Source of the DNA: an uncultured Verrucomicrobiota bacterium | GTDB lineage: Bacteria; Verrucomicrobiota; Verrucomicrobiia; Limisphaerales; UBA9464 | Assembly (NCBI GenBank): GCA_903907995.1 | Contig: CAIVQH010000041.1 | Span: 310,001 to 374,000, forward strand | Direction: 5' to 3' | Length of the DNA: 64,000 nt | Shown: one piece after another, positions 30,972 through 39,032 of the stretch | Layout: the number at the start of each line of letters is the position of its first letter | Position numbering within the stretch: position 1 is the stretch's first letter | The notes under the pieces: model-generated | Seen by the model: only the letters and a program-made list of their open reading frames with translations | Databases searched by the model: none | Told to the model about the DNA's origin: nothing | Program-made: the position numbers and the translations under genes

Positions 30972-31047
30972 GGGGTCGTAGCTCAGTTGGTAGAGCACCA
31001 CAATGGCATTGTGGGGGTCAGGGGTTCGAATCCCCTCGGCTCCACCA
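30972..31047 (+). tRNA. tRNA-Ala, anticodon GGC
   Basis: 76 bases including an encoded CCA. The acceptor stem pairs GGGGTCG with CGGCTCC; the D arm is GCTC...GAGC, the anticodon stem CCACA/TGTGG with loop ATGGCAT (anticodon GGC), and the T arm AGGGG-TTCGAAT-CCCCT. Its final six bases (CCACCA) are also the first six of the left 121-bp inverted repeat, and its 3' half overlaps, antisense, the last codons of the serine recombinase. Confidence 0.95.
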
Positions 31048-32541
31048 GATCGAAAGTTGGTCGGAACCGCTCGCCGCGCATGACGCGGCGATGTTCGTTT
31101 CAGCCAATGAATTCCACGGTTTTGTGAAGGTAACGGTGAGGGATTGAGCGCGTAAAAGGCGGTTCGAACCTACCTTTTGGAGAAATGACTTCATTTCTAA
31201 CCCGTCCCCTTCAAAAACCAGTCTTTCAGCCTGATTTGCCTCCAGAATCCAGTTTCGCATGGGTTCTAACCTTTGGCTCCGGCTCTTCGCCAAGACGGCA
31301 ATCTGTCCCTCCAACTCGACCTTTCGCGGAACGAGTGGATTCTTCATTTCCCGGAACTCGGGCAGGTCAAGCGAACCGTCCGCGAAGGCGTTGTTGAGCC
31401 GGTCCAGCTTCGCCTTGAGCGCGTCCTGTTCGCCCTTGAGGCGTGCCAACTTCTGCTGCCTGGTATCGGTGGCTTCGGATTCCCAAGTTTCAATCCGGGC
31501 AAGGAAACGCTCCTTCCAAATCTCGGGCAGGATGACGAGCGCCACGTTACGCCGAATCTCTTCCGCCATACGTTCCTCGCGGACGAAGCCGCGTTCCTCG
31601 CACTGCTGCACCTTGCTCTTGCGGGTGCAATGGTAGTAGTGGAAGCGGAGGCCGCTCTTCTTGACGTGCCGCTCGGCGGTCACGGCAAAGCCACAGCAAC
31701 CACAGGTGGCAAAATGGCGGAAGAGAAAGCCCTTGTCGCGCCGGCTCTGACGCGGCCTGCCGACCGCCACCAGTGCTCGCTGGATGTCGTCGTAGGTCTG
31801 TTTCGTAATCATCGGCACATGCGCCCCTTGGTGAAGCTCCCCCTTGTGCTGGAAGACGCCGTAGTAAAATGGATTGCGGAGCATTTTGCCGATGGTCGAG
31901 AGCACAGGCGGCCGTTGTGAGCGGTAGCCGACGAGTCCCGCCGCCGCCAGTTCCCGGCGAAAGGCGGTCAATGAATACCTTCCGGTCGCGAAGCATTCCA
32001 AGAGGCGCTTCACCTTCGGGAAGTTTTCGGGATGCGCTTCGATGGTACGCAAGCGCGGCTCGTTGAAGTAACCGAGCGGAGCCTTGCTCGGGGCAATACC
32101 CCGGCGAAGCTTCTCGCGGATGCCGCTGCGAATGTTGGCGGCAAGGTCGCGAACATACTGGTTCGCCATGCCCAACTCGACGGCAATTGTGAGCACGTTA
32201 TCGGTCGGCAGATACACCCGGTCGGAGGTGCGGATTTCCTGGATCACACCGCGCTGAAGCAGGCCGATGATCCGGCCGCCGTCGTCGAAGTTGCGGGCGA
32301 GCCGGTCCAGTTTCCATGTTAAGATGGCGTTGGCTTCGCCCGCCTCGATGCGCCGGAGCATGTCGTTGAAAATCTCGCGCCCCGACTCCTTGGCGCTTTT
32401 GCTTTCGGTGAACGTGCGGACAACCTGCAACCCATGCTCCGCCGCCAGCCCGTCGAGTTCGGAGAGCTGACGTTCAATGGAGAGCATCTGGCGATCCTCG
32501 TCCTCGCTCGACTTGCGACCATAATTGAAGTGTTTAAGCAT
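31018..32541 (-). CDS. Large serine recombinase
   Basis: 507 residues from ATG 32541 (MLKHFNYGRKSSEDEDRQML). The resolvase domain has YGRKSS with the expected nucleophile serine (S11) and ILTWKLDRLARN; the recombinase domain follows (APLGYF..., MLRNPFYYGVFQHKGE), then a zinc ribbon with four cysteines (CGCC...C...C) and a coiled coil (LARLKGEQDALKAKLDRLNN). The last 40 residues are encoded by the left inverted repeat and the final seven (SRGDSNP) by the antisense of tRNA-Ala, where the stop lies. Probably acts on the flanking 121-bp repeats or on an attachment site in them. Confidence 0.9.
   Translation of the reverse strand: MLKHFNYGRKSSEDEDRQMLSIERQLSELDGLAAEHGLQVVRTFTESKSAKESGREIFNDMLRRIEAGEANAILTWKLDRLARNFDDGGRIIGLLQRGVIQEIRTSDRVYLPTDNVLTIAVELGMANQYVRDLAANIRSGIREKLRRGIAPSKAPLGYFNEPRLRTIEAHPENFPKVKRLLECFATGRYSLTAFRRELAAAGLVGYRSQRPPVLSTIGKMLRNPFYYGVFQHKGELHQGAHVPMITKQTYDDIQRALVAVGRPRQSRRDKGFLFRHFATCGCCGFAVTAERHVKKSGLRFHYYHCTRKSKVQQCEERGFVREERMAEEIRRNVALVILPEIWKERFLARIETWESEATDTRQQKLARLKGEQDALKAKLDRLNNAFADGSLDLPEFREMKNPLVPRKVELEGQIAVLAKSRSQRLEPMRNWILEANQAERLVFEGDGLEMKSFLQKVGSNRLLRAQSLTVTFTKPWNSLAETNIAASCAASGSDQLSIWWSRGDSNP
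31042..31162 (+). repeat. 121-bp inverted repeat, left copy
   Basis: Reverse complement of 33073-33193 with no mismatch when compared base by base. It begins CCACCAGATC and ends TAAAAGGCGG. It contains the last 40 repeat-encoded codons of the recombinase and overlaps the CCA end of the tRNA. A possible inner palindrome GCCGCGCATGACGCGGC is present. Confidence 0.95.
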
Positions 32542-32583
32542 GGACAAATCGTATCATATACCATAAGTAATTGCGAGAATAAA
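32542..32583. promoter_or_regulatory. Divergent promoter region of the recombinase element
   Basis: 42 AT-rich bases between the two start codons, in contrast to the GC-rich surroundings. On the plus strand TGGACA overlaps the recombinase start and TAAGTA lies 17 bases on; on the minus strand TATGAT is a good -10. Because the two promoters overlap, the genes are likely to be controlled together, perhaps by the HTH protein. Confidence 0.4.
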
Positions 32584-32994
32584 ATGAAGCAAACTAAGCC
32601 AGAAAAACTCGGCGAAAGCACGCTGCACCGATTGCGGGGCGATTCGCCGACAGAGCGTCTTTTGCATCGCCTCCATGCGGTCGCGCTCGTGCTGCATGGG
32701 CTTTCGGCCAGCGAAGTGGCGCGGGCGTTTGGCGACTCGCCCCGCGCAGTAGCTTATTGGGCCAAGCGCTTCCTGGAGCAAGGTATGGAAGGTCTGCATG
32801 AGGAGGCCCGTTCCGGGCGTCCACCCAAGCTCAATCCGACTCAAATGAAACATCTGCAAGGATTCCTCGAACAATCCGCAGCCGGATCGAAAGCGGCCCA
32901 AGCCCGCGCTCTCTCGGGCTTCATAAAGGCGCGCTTCCAAATCGAAATGTCCGTCTTTCAGTGCGCGCGAATTCTCGCGCGACTCAAGCCATGA
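32584..32994 (+). CDS. HTH protein resembling the N-terminus of IS630-type transposases
   Basis: 136 residues from ATG 32584 (MKQTKPEKLGESTLHRL). A helix-turn-helix is visible in LVLHGLSASEVARAFGDSPRAVAYWAKRF, followed by GMEGLHEEARSGRPPKLNP, the linker typical of IS630/Tc1-type transposase DNA-binding halves, and a second winged-helix-like part. There is no DDE catalytic domain. It is divergent from the recombinase inside the element, so it may be a regulator or directionality factor, or a domesticated transposase fragment. Confidence 0.75.
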   Translation: MKQTKPEKLGESTLHRLRGDSPTERLLHRLHAVALVLHGLSASEVARAFGDSPRAVAYWAKRFLEQGMEGLHEEARSGRPPKLNPTQMKHLQGFLEQSAAGSKAAQARALSGFIKARFQIEMSVFQCARILARLKP

Positions 32995-33072
32995 GGCGGT
33001 TTTCCTCGTTAACCGGTATGTGTCCCCCGGCTCGAAGCTGCTTGTGCCAGCCGAGACAGCACTGATGCTGTC

Positions 33073-33193
33073 CCGCCTTTTACGCGCTCAATCCCTCACC
33101 GTTACCTTCACAAAACCGTGGAATTCATTGGCTGAAACGAACATCGCCGCGTCATGCGCGGCGAGCGGTTCCGACCAACTTTCGATCTGGTGG
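33073..33193 (-). repeat. 121-bp inverted repeat, right copy
   Basis: Perfect reverse complement of 31042-31162. In this orientation it encodes the same 40 residues as the recombinase C-terminus (starting RLLRAQSLTVTF), then continues in frame into CLLAEVRAFFEESPS and a stop at 33241. That frame has no start region of its own, so it is not listed as a gene. Confidence 0.95.
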
Positions 33194-33254
33194 TGCTTAT
33201 TGGCCGAAGTTCGGGCCTTTTTCGAGGAAAGTCCGTCGTGAGAGGGGTTCCATA

Positions 33255-33280
33255 CCCCCTTCCACACCACTGGAAGGGGG
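33255..33280. repeat. Perfect 10-bp hairpin
   Basis: CCCCCTTCCA and TGGAAGGGGG pair around a 6-base loop. There is no T run, so it is not a standard terminator. It lies 62 bp outside the right inverted repeat. Confidence 0.55.
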
Positions 33281-33480
33281 GCCGGTTCAAAAACCGCCTG
33301 CCTAGCAAAGACTTTTGCACGAATTGGCGCGGTGGCGCATCCCCGAATTCGGTCGGTTTTTCCCCTCACGGGGCGGCACTTCGTTTGGGCTGCGCGCGGC
33401 GTGAGGCCGTGCTCGCCAAAAACCTCCCTCGTCGCTCACGCGACCCACGGGTTCACCCACCGACGAATTTGAATCTTTCT

Positions 33481-33515
33481 GTGAAAGAAATTGTTCAGAC
33501 CGCCGTGAGGCGGTC
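33481..33515 (-). terminator. Terminator-like hairpin after the gene remnant
   Basis: GACCGCC and GGCGGTC (33498-33504/33509-33515) form a perfect 7-bp stem with a 4-base loop; on the minus strand it is followed by AATTTCTTT. It lies 6 bp past the stop of the remnant at 33521, which suggests the remnant was once an expressed gene. Confidence 0.5.
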
Positions 33516-33520
33516 GCGCT

Positions 33521-33909
33521 TCAATCCGCTGTCATCTTGACCACCAGGCTTCGGACGGAGCATTGCCCGAAGCCGTTGCCAAAACTGTTCCCCACGAGGA
33601 ATTCCATCTGCAGGGTGCATTCGCCGGCGGGCGTTTGCATACTGCTGTAGAGAGGAGAGAATTTCATGGTCACGGAAACCGAATCCCCTGAGGCGATCTC
33701 GGTCGCCTCGGTGAAGCCGTTGTTCTGAAAGAGGGTGGCCGGAATTCCGGTCACGCTGCGGTTGACCGATTCGACCCCGTTCGGGGCGGTGATCGTCGGC
33801 GTCGAGGTGCCAAACATCCCGCCGCGCACGGCCACCCAAAGGGGTTTCTTTTTGGACAGGTTCACCAGCGTCATCGTCAACTGATACCCGTTGTTGTTGA
33901 CGGGATGCA
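33521..33909 (-). pseudogene. 3' remnant of a beta-rich secreted-type protein gene
   Basis: About 128 in-frame codons on the minus strand with protein-like composition (HPVNNNGYQLTMTLVNLSKK, TPTITAPNGVESVNRS, GECTLQMEFLVGNS), ending in a normal stop and a terminator. Upstream the frame runs into the antisense of the PEP-CTERM gene at 33920, where it loses all protein-like features, and there is no start codon at the junction. An internal ATG at 33874 would give 117 residues. The best reading is a gene whose 5' part was lost near 33910. Confidence 0.5.
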
Positions 33910-33919
33910 GCGTTAGGAG

Positions 33920-35888: not shown

Positions 35889-36458
35889 TCAGGGCTTCTT
35901 GGCCGGGCCGACCAACTCGATGAAGGTTCCGTCGGGATCTTGGAACGTCACGAGCTGTGTGCCCCCGCCCAGTTCCACGGGCGACTCCACCAGCAGCTTT
36001 ACCCCGCCGGCCTTGAGCAGCCGCAGCGACTGCGTCATGTCGCCCACGTAGATCGTGAGGTAGTTCAGCCCCATCGTGGAATGGATGAACTTCCGTTCCG
36101 GCTTGGTCACGGCGACGTCCGGGAAGGACATCAGCTTGATCTTCGTGGCTGAATCCCCTTCACCCAGCTCGAAGACGCGGATTTTCACCGCCCGGCTGTC
36201 GGTCAGGCCGATTTTCTTGCCCATCGCGGCCGGCACGTTGAATCCCGGGATCTCACGGAAACCGATCACGTTGGTGTAAAACTGGGCGGCCTTGTCGAGG
36301 TCACTGACCACGATGCCCACGTCGATCACCGGCTTCGAAAAGGTCACTGCTGGCTCCTCCACGCGCACTCGCAACAGGCTCAGGGAGAATAACGCCGTCA
36401 GCAGCAGGGCCGTGAAGAGGCTGGTACGCCGGCGGGTGGAAACAGGGATTGAAGTCAT
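35889..36458 (-). CDS. Secreted or anchored VOC-superfamily protein
   Basis: 189 residues. An N-terminal membrane segment (LFTALLLTALFSLSLL) is followed by a vicinal-oxygen-chelate (glyoxalase/dioxygenase) domain: VIDVGIVVSDLDKAAQFYTN, GLNYLTIYVGDMTQSLRLL and LVTFQDPDGTFIELVG. Metal ligands expected for the fold (H/E) are only partly visible (E at the end of FIELVG), so it may be a binding rather than catalytic protein. It is divergent from the ABC transporter genes. Confidence 0.8.
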   Translation of the reverse strand: MTSIPVSTRRRTSLFTALLLTALFSLSLLRVRVEEPAVTFSKPVIDVGIVVSDLDKAAQFYTNVIGFREIPGFNVPAAMGKKIGLTDSRAVKIRVFELGEGDSATKIKLMSFPDVAVTKPERKFIHSTMGLNYLTIYVGDMTQSLRLLKAGGVKLLVESPVELGGGTQLVTFQDPDGTFIELVGPAKKP

Positions 36459-36522
36459 CCGTGAAGCCTACCCGCCGCCAATCACGGCTCAAGCGAAAGC
36501 GCCTCCTGGCTTCTGACTCCCG

Positions 36523-36543
36523 CTTTTTCCTTTTTCCTTTCTC
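36523..36543 (+). repeat. Three-unit heptamer array (CTTTTTC)
   Basis: CTTTTTC, CTTTTTC, CTTTCTC in succession, in the leader between the VOC gene and the first binding-protein gene. Confidence 0.6.
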
Positions 36544-36607
36544 CCCACTGGCTCTTAGCCTCGCCGGGTTGGCGGTCGTCCCGGCCGCCGGCATAACCGC
36601 AAAGACC

Positions 36608-37798
36608 ATGATGAAACTCTCGCCCGACACGTCCCGCCGTGGATTTCTCACCCTCGTCGCCGCTGCCGCTTTGTTGGCCGGCTGCAAACCCTCCGGCGGT
36701 TCCGGTTCCGGCGGAGATGCGGCCGGCGGGGGTGCCAGCACCATTGTCGTCGGCGAATTTGCCTCGCTGACGGGTACCGAGGCCACCTTTGGCAAGTCCT
36801 CGCACGAGGGCACCCTCCTGGCGATCGAGGAGCTGAACAAGGCCGGCGGCTTGCTCGGCAAGCAGTTCAGCCTGATCACCGAGGACAACCGCTCCACCGC
36901 CGGCGAATCGGTGACCATCGTGAAGAAGTTCATCAGCCGCGACCACGTGGTGGCGGTGCTCGGCGAGGTCGCCTCGGGCCGTTCCATGGAGGCCGCGCCC
37001 GTCTGCCAGCAGGCCGGCATCCCGATGGTTTCGCCCTCGTCCACCAATCCGAAGGTGACGGAGATCGGCGATTACATCTTCCGCGTGTGCTTCATCGACC
37101 CGTTCCAAGGGAAGCTGCTGGCGGACTTCGCCACCAAGACGCTCAAGGCGAAGAAGGTCGCCCTGCTCTCCGATGTCTCCTCGGCTTACAGCGACGGTCT
37201 CGGCCGCTTCTTCCGCGAAGGGTTCACCGCAGGAGGCGGCGAAATCATTTCCGAGCAGAAATACACGTCCAAGGACAAGGATTTCAAAGCCCAGCTCACC
37301 GCGATCAAGGCGGCCAGCCCTGACGCGATCTTCGTGCCCGGTTACTACACCGAGGCCGGCCTCATCGTCGCGCAGGCCCGTCAGCTCGGCATCACCCTGC
37401 CGATCTTTGGCGGCGACGGTTGGGAGGCTCCGGAGCTGATCCAGATCGCCGGCGGCGAGGCGCTCGCCAACACCTACTACTCGACCCACTACTCGCCGGA
37501 ATCCAGCGATGCCCGCGTGCAGACGTTTGTGAAGGCGTTCCAGGCCCGCTTCAACGGCGAGACGCCCGACGCCATGGCCGCCCTCGGCTACGATTCCGCG
37601 ATGGTCCTCGCCGATGCCATGAAACGCGCCGGCACCACCGACGGCGCCAAGGTCCGCGACGCCCTGGCCGCGACCAAGGATTACCCCTGCGTCACCGGCA
37701 AGACGACGCTCGACGCCGCCCGCAACGCCAGCAAGGCCGCCGTCATCATCACAGTGAAGGATGGCAAGTTTAAGTACCTCGAGACAATTCAGCCGTGA
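36608..37798 (+). CDS. Branched-chain amino-acid type ABC binding protein (LivJ-like), Tat lipoprotein
   Basis: 396 residues from ATG 36608 (MMKLSPDTSRRGFLTLV). The leader has a twin-arginine motif (SRRGFL) and a lipobox LLAGC, so it should be exported folded and lipid-anchored. The mature part is a periplasmic binding fold type I: IVVGEFASLTGTEATFGKS, GGLLGKQFSLITEDNRSTA, SPSSTNPKVTEIGDYIFRV. The frame upstream to 36449 is not needed. It is closely related to the next gene (37884), pointing to a tandem duplication. Ligand not determinable; aminoacid-like or amide compounds are typical. Confidence 0.9.
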   Translation: MMKLSPDTSRRGFLTLVAAAALLAGCKPSGGSGSGGDAAGGGASTIVVGEFASLTGTEATFGKSSHEGTLLAIEELNKAGGLLGKQFSLITEDNRSTAGESVTIVKKFISRDHVVAVLGEVASGRSMEAAPVCQQAGIPMVSPSSTNPKVTEIGDYIFRVCFIDPFQGKLLADFATKTLKAKKVALLSDVSSAYSDGLGRFFREGFTAGGGEIISEQKYTSKDKDFKAQLTAIKAASPDAIFVPGYYTEAGLIVAQARQLGITLPIFGGDGWEAPELIQIAGGEALANTYYSTHYSPESSDARVQTFVKAFQARFNGETPDAMAALGYDSAMVLADAMKRAGTTDGAKVRDALAATKDYPCVTGKTTLDAARNASKAAVIITVKDGKFKYLETIQP

Positions 37799-37807
37799 GG
37801 GGAATTG

Positions 37808-37884
37808 CGAGTGGCGAATTTCGAATGACGAGTGAGTCTTGCGGATGCGCACGATGAACTTTGAGCTTTGAATCTTGAGCTTCG
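37808..37884 (+). repeat. Heptamer array between the two binding-protein genes
   Basis: CGAGTGG, CGAATTT, CGAATGA, CGAGTGA (37808-37835), a non-repeated middle part, then AACTTTG, AGCTTTG, AATCTTG, AGCTTCG (37857-37884). The array ends on the first base of the second gene's GTG start. Confidence 0.7.
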
Positions 37885-39032
37885 TGAAACTGTTTCTGCG
37901 CACGCTCGCACTGCTCTGCCTGCTATGCGCCTTCGCCGGTTGCGGCCGAAAAGAGGCAGCCGCTCCTGGTGCCGCAACTCCCATCCGAATAGGCGAATTC
38001 TCCTCGCTCACCGGGCGCGAAGCCGGGCTCGGTCAATACACCCACATGGGCGTGCTGTTGGCACTGGAGGAGCTGGACGCCGCCGGCGGCCTGCTGGGCC
38101 GCCCGGTCGAGGTCATTGCCGAGGACACCCAGTCCAAGGCGGGTGAATCCGTCACGGCCACGCGCAAGCTCGTTAGCCGCGACCACGTCATCGCACTGAT
38201 CGGTGAGGGGGCTTCCGGCCGTTGTCTCGAAGGCGCACCGATCGCTCAGGCTGGCCGCGTGCCGCTGGTCACCCCGAGCGCGACCAATCCCAAGGTGACC
38301 GAGATCGGCGACTACATCTTCCGCGTCTGCTTCACCGATCCCTTCCAGGGCACGGTGATGGCGAAGTTCGCCCGCGACTCGCTCAAGGCGCGCCGCGTGG
38401 CCCTGCTCGTGGATGTCGGCGCCTCCTACAGCGTCGGCCTCGCGGAGTTCTTCAAGGAACGGTTCAAGGCCGATGGCGGCGAGATCGTGGCCGAGCAGAA
38501 ATTCGCCGGCGGCGACAAGGATTTCCGGGCCCAGCTCACGGCGATCAAGGCCGCCAATCCTGACGCCATCTTCGCCCCCTGCTACTACGGCGAAGCCGGG
38601 CTGATCCTGTTTCAGGCCCGTCAGCTCGGGATCACCCTTCCGATCCTCGGCGGCGATGGGTACGAGGCCCCCGAGCTGATCGAGGTCGCCGGGGCGGCGG
38701 CGGAGGGCGCCTACTTCCCCGTCCATTTCTCACTGGAGAGCACCGACACCCGGAGCCGTGATTTTGTCCAGAAGTTCACCGCTCGCTTCCAGAAGCCACC
38801 CACCGGAGTCTCCGCCCTTGGTTATGACGCCCTGATGCTCGTGGCCGACGCCATTCGCCGGGCTGGCACCACCGACGGCGCTGCGATCCGCGACGCCCTT
38901 GCCGCCACGCATGAATTCAGCGGCGTGACCGGCCGCATCACCATTGATTCCGCCCGCAACGCCCACAAGCCAGCCTCGATCATCCGGGTGCGGGACGGGC
39001 GTTTTCAGTTTGTCGAGACGGTCGCACCTTGA
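37884..39032 (+). CDS. Branched-chain amino-acid type ABC binding protein (LivJ-like), lipoprotein
   Basis: 382 residues from GTG 37884 (MKLFLRTLALLCLLCAFAGC); a TTG at 37875 is the alternative. The lipobox CAFAGC marks a lipoprotein, here without a twin-arginine motif. The rest is homologous along its length to the gene at 36608 (same VTEIGDYIFRVCF and GITLPILGGDGYEAPELI segments), but its signal peptide and some binding-site loops differ. Two binding proteins may deliver different ligands to one permease pair. Confidence 0.9.
   Translation: MKLFLRTLALLCLLCAFAGCGRKEAAAPGAATPIRIGEFSSLTGREAGLGQYTHMGVLLALEELDAAGGLLGRPVEVIAEDTQSKAGESVTATRKLVSRDHVIALIGEGASGRCLEGAPIAQAGRVPLVTPSATNPKVTEIGDYIFRVCFTDPFQGTVMAKFARDSLKARRVALLVDVGASYSVGLAEFFKERFKADGGEIVAEQKFAGGDKDFRAQLTAIKAANPDAIFAPCYYGEAGLILFQARQLGITLPILGGDGYEAPELIEVAGAAAEGAYFPVHFSLESTDTRSRDFVQKFTARFQKPPTGVSALGYDALMLVADAIRRAGTTDGAAIRDALAATHEFSGVTGRITIDSARNAHKPASIIRVRDGRFQFVETVAP

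Follow-up and report, generated by a model that had tools for sequence, protein, structure and literature searches.

The window is a stretch of 64,000 nucleotides (nt) from an uncultured Verrucomicrobiota bacterium of the order Limisphaerales (contig CAIVQH010000041.1, positions 310,001 to 374,000). It contains a gene for a large serine recombinase that is enclosed in long inverted repeats and lies directly behind a transfer RNA (tRNA) gene. The locus is likely an integrated mobile element, one of a family of small, tRNA-targeted large-serine-integrase elements that carry a spare, inverted copy of their own attachment site. In the following, attP is the putative attachment site of the element, attB the target in the chromosome, and attL and attR the junctions at the tRNA and at the far end. 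The repeat arms around the recombinase are called A and A', and those around the cargo of related elements B and B'. The features of the locus, with their basis in brackets, are:

30972-31047, plus strand: tRNA-Ala(GGC), the putative integration target; CCACCA at 31042-31047 is the attL core (ARAGORN, arm boundary).
31018-32541, minus strand: large serine recombinase, 507 amino acids (aa) from ATG (open reading frame, Pfam domains, tail reading).
31042-31162, plus strand: A arm beside the tRNA, the attL half, which codes for the recombinase residues up to ...WW (perfect inverted repeat; same position in relatives).
32584-32994, plus strand: 136-aa helix-turn-helix protein (open reading frame; homologues likewise placed in close verrucomicrobial relatives).
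33073-33193, minus strand: A' arm, the inverted copy of the A arm (perfect inverted repeat).
33188-33193, minus strand: core of the putative spare inverted attP, CCACCA on the minus strand (comparison with two-module loci).
33194-33241, plus strand: conserved recombinase tail past the core, CLLAEVRAFFEESPS and a stop; an intact attP is required for its fusion to the recombinase (tail readings).
33194-33470, plus strand: B arm, start of the cargo module, with an approximate right end (pieces 70-93% identical in the relatives L091, L059, L112 and L105; copies on contigs C39 and C15 of the same genome).
33471-33917, no strand: remainder up to the point where collinearity with the same-genus genome G003 resumes, a truncated or replaced cargo side (comparison with G003; no second B arm found in the window).

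The inverted arms at 31039-31162 and 33073-33196 are 124 nt long, 99% complementary and spaced 1910 nt apart. Their perfect portion (31042-31162 and 33073-33193, 121 nt) has no mismatch, as the sequence-only reading of this DNA had claimed. A chance origin is excluded because the other inverted pairs listed in the same 9 kb reach at most 30 nt at 70-82% complementarity. ARAGORN places the tRNA-Ala(GGC) gene so that its last six bases, CCACCA, are the start of the left perfect arm.

The recombinase reading frame spans 31018-32547 on the minus strand and encodes 509 aa from a TTG, or 507 aa from the ATG at 32541. PF00239, PF07508 and PF13408 each score over the cut-off, which gives a catalytic Resolvase domain followed by Recombinase and zinc-ribbon domains, the order expected of a large serine integrase. 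The family profile matches the large serine integrase chains 9dxh and 4kis in the PDB (SPbeta YokA and the A118 integrase). The 136-aa protein resembles the N-terminal part of IS630 transposases, with a score under the IS630 cut-off, and is possibly a regulator or a directionality factor. The open reading frames and domain matches therefore agree with the earlier description of a self-contained module in which the repeats enclose a large serine recombinase and a helix-turn-helix protein. It was also correctly noticed that the repeat includes the 3' end of the recombinase gene. The frame passes through the left arm into the antisense strand of the tRNA and ends in ...WWSRGDSNP, where SRGDSNP are tRNA-antisense residues.

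The same arrangement occurs in other genomes. The order-level comparison covers five full-length recombinases, those of the window and of genomes G043, G282, G273 and G174; the latter four are 63-64% identical to the window protein, and G043 belongs to the order of the window. Their perfect arms measure 121, 65, 121, 111 and 121 bp, respectively, and have locus-specific sequences. These full-length relatives are located at tRNA-Ala or transfer-messenger RNA (tmRNA) genes; G273 has no ARAGORN call, yet its arm adjoins sequence resembling that at the G282 tmRNA. A scan of a genome-contig collection yielded 61 loci, mostly from Verrucomicrobia and Patescibacteria, with one from Planctomycetota, one from Acidobacteria and several from unclassified records. 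By a loose count (E <= 1e-60, with or without arms) the family is present in 181 of 379 sampled Patescibacteria genomes. From these, 60 regions were picked among the better matches, mostly not at contig ends, and they hold 64 recombinases (matches below 600 bp skipped). This Patescibacteria sample has the A pair in 53/64, a tRNA or tmRNA gene on the recombinase 3' side in 54/64 and a B pair in 31. In the genome-contig set together with the window (matches below 450 bp skipped), the A pair is present at 35 of 63 recombinases and a 3'-side tRNA or tmRNA at 44 of 63.

Within a locus the two A arms have a median identity of 99.1% and are fully identical in 37 of 88 rows (L128 and L132 are counted twice here, being the same contigs as L221 and L228 of the Patescibacteria sample). 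This supports the earlier suggestion that recent copying or ongoing recombination keeps the repeats alike. A chance duplication or an assembly artefact confined to this genome is hardly credible. The genome is a draft of 60 contigs, which would allow such an error, but dozens of independent assemblies have the same arrangement with differing arm sequences, and some of the contigs are about the size of a genome.

In many loci a second inverted pair, B and B', abuts A' with an overlap of a few bases at the core. From the tRNA outward, the full layout in relatives from Verrucomicrobia and Patescibacteria is tRNA, core, A, recombinase, A', inverted core, B, cargo, B', core and flank. There are 43 such two-module loci, one of them verrucomicrobial (L112). 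The cargo varies between loci and the B arms are spaced 511-6432 bp apart, while the A-arm spacing stays at 1396-1893 bp; entire elements measure 2.3-8.2 kb. All three sites, attL, attP and attR, have the same core in 31 of the 43 loci, a figure that partly follows from the method since the arms are defined as repeats; it matches at one other site in 8 and at neither in 2, and 2 loci have no overlap. The core tracks the target: CCAC(CA) for Ala, TGCAC or GCACCA for Arg, CTGCCA for Glu, CAGCCA for Gln and CCGC for Ser. The 3'-side genes comprise 19 tRNA isotypes and tmRNA (loci with and without arms counted). Of the 42 cargo proteins listed, 19 were scanned. Pfam matches were obtained for 14 of these, among them metabolic enzymes, transporters, a DNA methylase and an OLD-like AAA/TOPRIM protein, and a replication gene was recognised in none of the 19.

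Some loci of this kind have features of their own. A 17-kb part of a 1.05-Mb contig, L255 (G504:C1:389000-406000), contains a pair of two-module elements, one at tRNA-Leu(gag) and the other, on the opposite strand, at tRNA-Gly(gcc). L116 (JAKAHD010000005.1) has two elements in series behind tRNA genes (Ala, Ser), and the cargo of the first is a sodium:solute symporter. The tRNA-Val element L225 (G473:C1, an 802-kb contig) has perfect B arms of 226 bp, and among its cargo is a defence-like gene for an AAA ATPase that has an OLD-like TOPRIM domain.

No direct repeat of the tRNA 3' end was found in a search near the window element, and this lack of a classical direct repeat prompted the reading with a spare attP. 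According to the comparison of sites, the repeats are the halves of the predicted attachment site of the element: the tRNA end is attL, the far end is attR, and the A'/B junction is an intact, inverted, spare attP. The clearest case is L264, which lies at a tRNA-Ser gene; its contig is 826 kb long, in a genome of about 0.8 Mb. At L292 in G727, a genome of the same family, the tRNA 3' end is joined straight to the flank, which provides the empty site. The attB of L292 is CCTCCCTTTCCGC followed by AGAAGTGAAA. In L264, attL is CCTCCCTTTCCGC followed by CAAAATTGG, attR is CTAATACACACCGC followed by AGAAGTGAAA, and the internal attP is CTAATACACACCGC followed by CAAAATTGG. As far as sequence can tell, this quartet is a textbook exchange of attB and attP into attL and attR, with an intact putative attP remaining inside. 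The quartet and the core identity described above characterise the family as tRNA-targeted integrative elements; the window itself contributes only attL and the spare attP. The search for empty sites of L264 covered 28 genomes, with a match in 7. In another relative, G742, roughly 0.9 kb separate a tRNA-Ser(gct) from the same flank gene, which is 75% identical, and the 20 kb fetched contain no recombinase match. No empty site was found for L126, whose genus consists of its own genome, or for L112 among 3 genomes, and the 74 genomes searched for L243 gave one weak partial match.

These junctions also bear on whether the locus is a transposon with terminal inverted repeats and a serine transposase, whose ends would be the two A arms. 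Perfect, terminal-looking repeats do surround the recombinase and the helix-turn-helix gene, and several verrucomicrobial loci yielded no second B arm. However, the element extends to B' in the 43 two-module loci, attL and attR share the short core in direct orientation, and comparison with the empty site reveals no target duplication. A transposon is very improbable, and it was rejected on the two-module loci and the empty site.

The position of attP affects the recombinase itself. When the recombinase frame is read via A' across the core into B, as in an intact attP, its final residues form a conserved tail, which is WW-CLLAEVRAFFEESPS in the window, WW-CLLDKVRTFFDENPV in L105 and WW-DILNFARNYFEGN in L120. 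A broad tail pattern is matched in 59 of 91 loci in this attP reading. The integrated reading matches it in 1 locus, the other two frames in 1 and 3, and the reverse strand in 6. A narrower pattern is matched in 38 of 91 loci, compared with 1, 4 and 1 in the controls. Both patterns were composed after some of the tails had been inspected. In 31 non-redundant segments, 1182 of 3278 codon differences are synonymous in the recombinase frame, compared with 310/2921 and 204/2815 in the other frames; these segments were chosen by an amino-acid pattern in that frame, a choice that favours synonymous changes. An unselected test of the nine codons past the arm (91 loci, 83 usable, 74 non-redundant) found a stop in the recombinase frame in 6 of 74 loci; the other frames have one in 27 and 21 loci, and the reverse strand in 23. 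L128 and L132 are omitted from the tail and codon tests. The conserved tail and the codon tests therefore indicate that selection acts on the protein whose frame crosses attP. On this evidence, attP is placed inside the 3' end of the recombinase gene, and integration is predicted to exchange the last ~15-25 residues, encoded by B, for tRNA-antisense codons. This anatomy, together with the swap of tails, can be put forward with high confidence.

The sequence-only reading had identified the locus as an inverton-like element, in which the recombinase module flips between the arms, and had looked to relatives in the opposite orientation for support. The long, identical inverted arms, kept alike within loci, fit such a phase-variable switch. 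The tRNA lies on the recombinase 5' side in 4 of 63 cases in the genome-contig set with the window, and L159 is a fifth case that is too short for that count. These five loci do read tRNA, A', recombinase; since every one of their contigs ends inside the recombinase, misassembly across the repeat is possible. In the Patescibacteria sample there is no flipped locus (0/64), so the predicted class of relatives is nearly empty. The cargo side occurs both ways: the longest cargo open reading frame is opposite to the recombinase strand in 33 of the 43 two-module loci and on the same strand in 9, with no frame of 80 aa in 1, although some of these longest frames may be antisense to the real gene. Inversion may therefore still happen in nature. 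As an identity for the element the inverton was not borne out: the arms stop at the tRNA core and form part of the set of attP, attL and attR. With nearly all relatives in one orientation, an inverton with a promoter switch was rejected as the principal explanation, and a phase-variable switch as the main function is quite unlikely.

Several observations weigh against an integrative element with a spare attP and an exchanged tail. The tail pattern has no match in 32 of the 91 loci. In the unselected test the synonymous share is again highest in frame but reaches 9.2%, compared with 6.3% and 5.0% in the other frames and 6.7% on the reverse strand, a contrast that is small because the arm ends vary. 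Two equally working copies of attP predict that half of the elements are reversed, and almost none are. No arms were found at truncated close relatives (L060, L094-L097 and L099) or at many distant ones. Identity of the A pair falls as low as 78% (L257), and among the 52 sample loci with room on both sides the A pair is present in 43 and at least 97% identical in 32. Nearly all loci come from metagenome assemblies, where repeats of 100-150 bp are hard to resolve. No circular or free form was found: viral contigs gave none, and the matching plasmid (34) and phage (282) records are all below 60% identity, with 21-29% among the matches listed. The empty-site proof stems from a Patescibacteria locus and not from the window. 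Within the window no B' copy was found, so that neither attR nor the cargo module is delimited there, and the tRNA of G003 carries a decayed 53-bp A tail and is not a clean empty site.

Apart from this tail, G003 is informative about the cargo side of the window copy. It is collinear with the window to 31100 and again from 33918. This collinearity and the missing B' indicate that the cargo side has been truncated or replaced. The B arm follows directly after A' (33194 to about 33470) and is 70-93% identical, in pieces, to the B arms of the four relatives listed above. Of the full layout, the window thus has the recombinase module, the spare attP and the first part of the cargo module, and the far end is lost or unrecognisable. 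An open reading frame at 33533-33877 on the minus strand has no Pfam match. Further along, at 36449-39032, the window has two adjacent open reading frames which, judged from sequence, resemble substrate-binding proteins of ATP-binding cassette (ABC) transporters; they cross-match their G003 counterparts at 68-69% DNA identity, a tandem duplication.

The same genome seems to hold further copies. Contigs C5 (tRNA-Ala TGC) and C60 (tRNA-Ala CGC) both start with an identical 141 bases of A tail and tRNA end. Contigs C39 and C15 have the core and a B arm with the tail WWWLLDIARTFFDENPS behind unrelated flanks, as in attR-like ends; C15 terminates 140 bases after the start of the core and differs from C39 at one base. 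That exactly 141 bases are shared points to a k-mer of 141 in the assembler and to at least two further copies that the assembly left unclosed. With such a k-mer the assembler could pass through the shorter, 121-bp arms of the window, whose orientation would then probably be right. The window arm is 80-87% identical to three arms elsewhere, which lie at other tRNA-Ala genes, two of them in its own genome.

The proposed mechanism starts from an attP made up of the B half, a short core and the A half within the 3' end of the recombinase gene. By the sequence evidence, complete in relatives and partial in the window, recombination of this site with attB, at the 3' end of the tRNA or tmRNA gene, generates attL on the tRNA side and attR on the far side. 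The opposite end of the recombinase module carries another attP, which is inverted, intact and almost identical. The integrated form therefore has two modules behind the tRNA, each bounded by inverted repeats: the recombinase between A and A' and the cargo between B and B'. The excised form would be a circle with two inverted attP sites. Entry via the attP at the recombinase 3' end could lock the element in if the exchanged tail weakens or alters the recombinase. Only the product with a tail-less recombinase would be stable, which would explain the nearly fixed orientation. The spare attP could serve as a master copy of the site and of the tail, and recombination between the A arms, by inversion or gene conversion, could restore a full-length recombinase. 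This role of the tail swap and the spare attP in locking and restoring is put forward tentatively.

A different use of the same parts is possible, although rather unlikely. The locus would be the same integrative element, the tail swap would have no effect, and the spare attP would serve inversion of the circle or copy-number control, as in the 2-micron plasmid, or autoregulatory binding at the promoter. In the Patescibacteria loci about 30 bp lie between the end of the A' arm and the recombinase start, which is consistent with a promoter role, and the varying orientation of the cargo is consistent with inversion. However, binding alone needs no identical sequence of ~200-400 bp, and neither the scanned cargo proteins with their lack of a replication gene nor the viral contigs, plasmids and phages without a circle favour such a role. 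A folding of single-stranded element DNA into a double-stranded attP, as in integrons, was dropped by reasoning alone: if a serine recombinase acted on a hairpin of this kind, the resulting chromosome ends would be capped by hairpins.

The elements have partial counterparts among known systems. The ssrA islands of Dehalococcoides use a large serine recombinase, DsiB, at the 3' end of the tmRNA gene and carry variable cargo (PMC3146451). The dsiB gene overlaps attP/attL with an unclear stop codon, and the authors already suggest that it may be fully functional only on the circle (PMC3146451). In the recombinase at the tmRNA 3' end, the gene overlapping the site and the variable cargo, these islands resemble the present elements. 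They differ in that their direct repeats measure 20 bp, their integration module comprises six genes and includes a second, small recombinase, and insertion takes place in the T-loop; the term 'inverted repeat' is absent from the main text of that paper (PMC3146451). The present elements encode a single recombinase and insert at the CCA end; they carry a spare inverted attP, and conservation of the tail has been demonstrated.

In archaea, suicidal integrases of the spindle-shaped virus (SSV) type have attP within the integrase gene, so that integration breaks the gene; these are tyrosine recombinases split into two large parts, and the review terms self-disrupting recombinases exclusively archaeal (PMC8371274). 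The present elements share the position of attP, since the conserved frame crosses the core into B. In contrast, the enzyme here is a serine recombinase in which only ~15-25 residues are exchanged, and a spare attP with its tail stays in the element. In mycobacteriophage BPs, integration-dependent immunity depends on an attP in the repressor gene, and integration alters the C-terminus of the repressor and hence its activity (PMC4557955). Both systems place attP in a coding gene whose protein changes its C-terminus on integration; the gene is a repressor in BPs, whereas here attP lies in the recombinase gene and is duplicated in inverted orientation.

Staphylococcal cassette chromosome (SCC) elements use the large serine recombinases CcrA and CcrB and insert at the 3' end of a conserved gene, and long inverted modules are not known to be part of them. 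The window enzyme scores 55.0 bits against the CcrB equivalog (cut-off 900) and 54.1 against CcrA (cut-off 700), and the present elements target tRNA and tmRNA genes. Integrons are defined by a tyrosine integron integrase, whereas the window enzyme is a serine recombinase. Invertons have short inverted repeats around a promoter and are found in both orientations; inverted repeats and a recombinase are common to both, but the arms here are long, derived from attP and almost fixed in orientation. Elements with large serine integrases targeted to tRNA genes are thus known as a kind. No account of the architecture with an inverted spare attP was found in the openly licensed literature (listings and starts of abstracts), which is weak evidence of absence.

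Other repeats were seen around the relatives. Genomes G334, G329 and G333 have 7-9 recombinase matches each in genomes of 0.6-0.8 Mb, some of them fragments, in what appears to be repeated colonisation. A flank query from the G282 element that contains the B arm (L091, 6528-6762) has matches in 22 of the 49 genomes of its genus and at up to 7 places in one genome (G247). The B-arm part accounts for many of these matches, which points to numerous elements or to solitary remnants. The attR-flanking sequence of the L264 element has two more copies, 80% and 85% identical and ~11-13 kb away, at L289 (G668:C1, 17033-19133). L098 has another inverted repeat of ~200-253 bp (94-96%) at three places on one contig (628-880, 9342-9540 and 11124-11376), and a 114-bp repeat occurs in five tandem copies near the G043 element (L059, 14748-15317).

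Patescibacteria have very small genomes, and few vehicles for gene exchange are known from them. The elements described here would be a compact vehicle of this kind, with one recombinase, many tRNA targets and freely varying cargo. A bolder and rather doubtful possibility is that they act as a self-locking and self-restoring integration switch that carries genes in Patescibacteria and Verrucomicrobia, with the orientation of the module as its on/off memory. Both attP sites of the circle would carry the true C-terminus, and recombination, by either site, would continue until the recombinase gene joins a tRNA and loses its tail, which would lock the element in. Recombination between the A arms would then restore an active recombinase from the spare attP, and the cargo could leave again. 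The family explains recombinase genes whose annotated C-terminus is antisense tRNA, and it would supply large serine integrases of many different tRNA specificities. It also poses the question of why an element keeps two nearly identical attachment sites head to head and lets integration rewrite the tail of its integrase.

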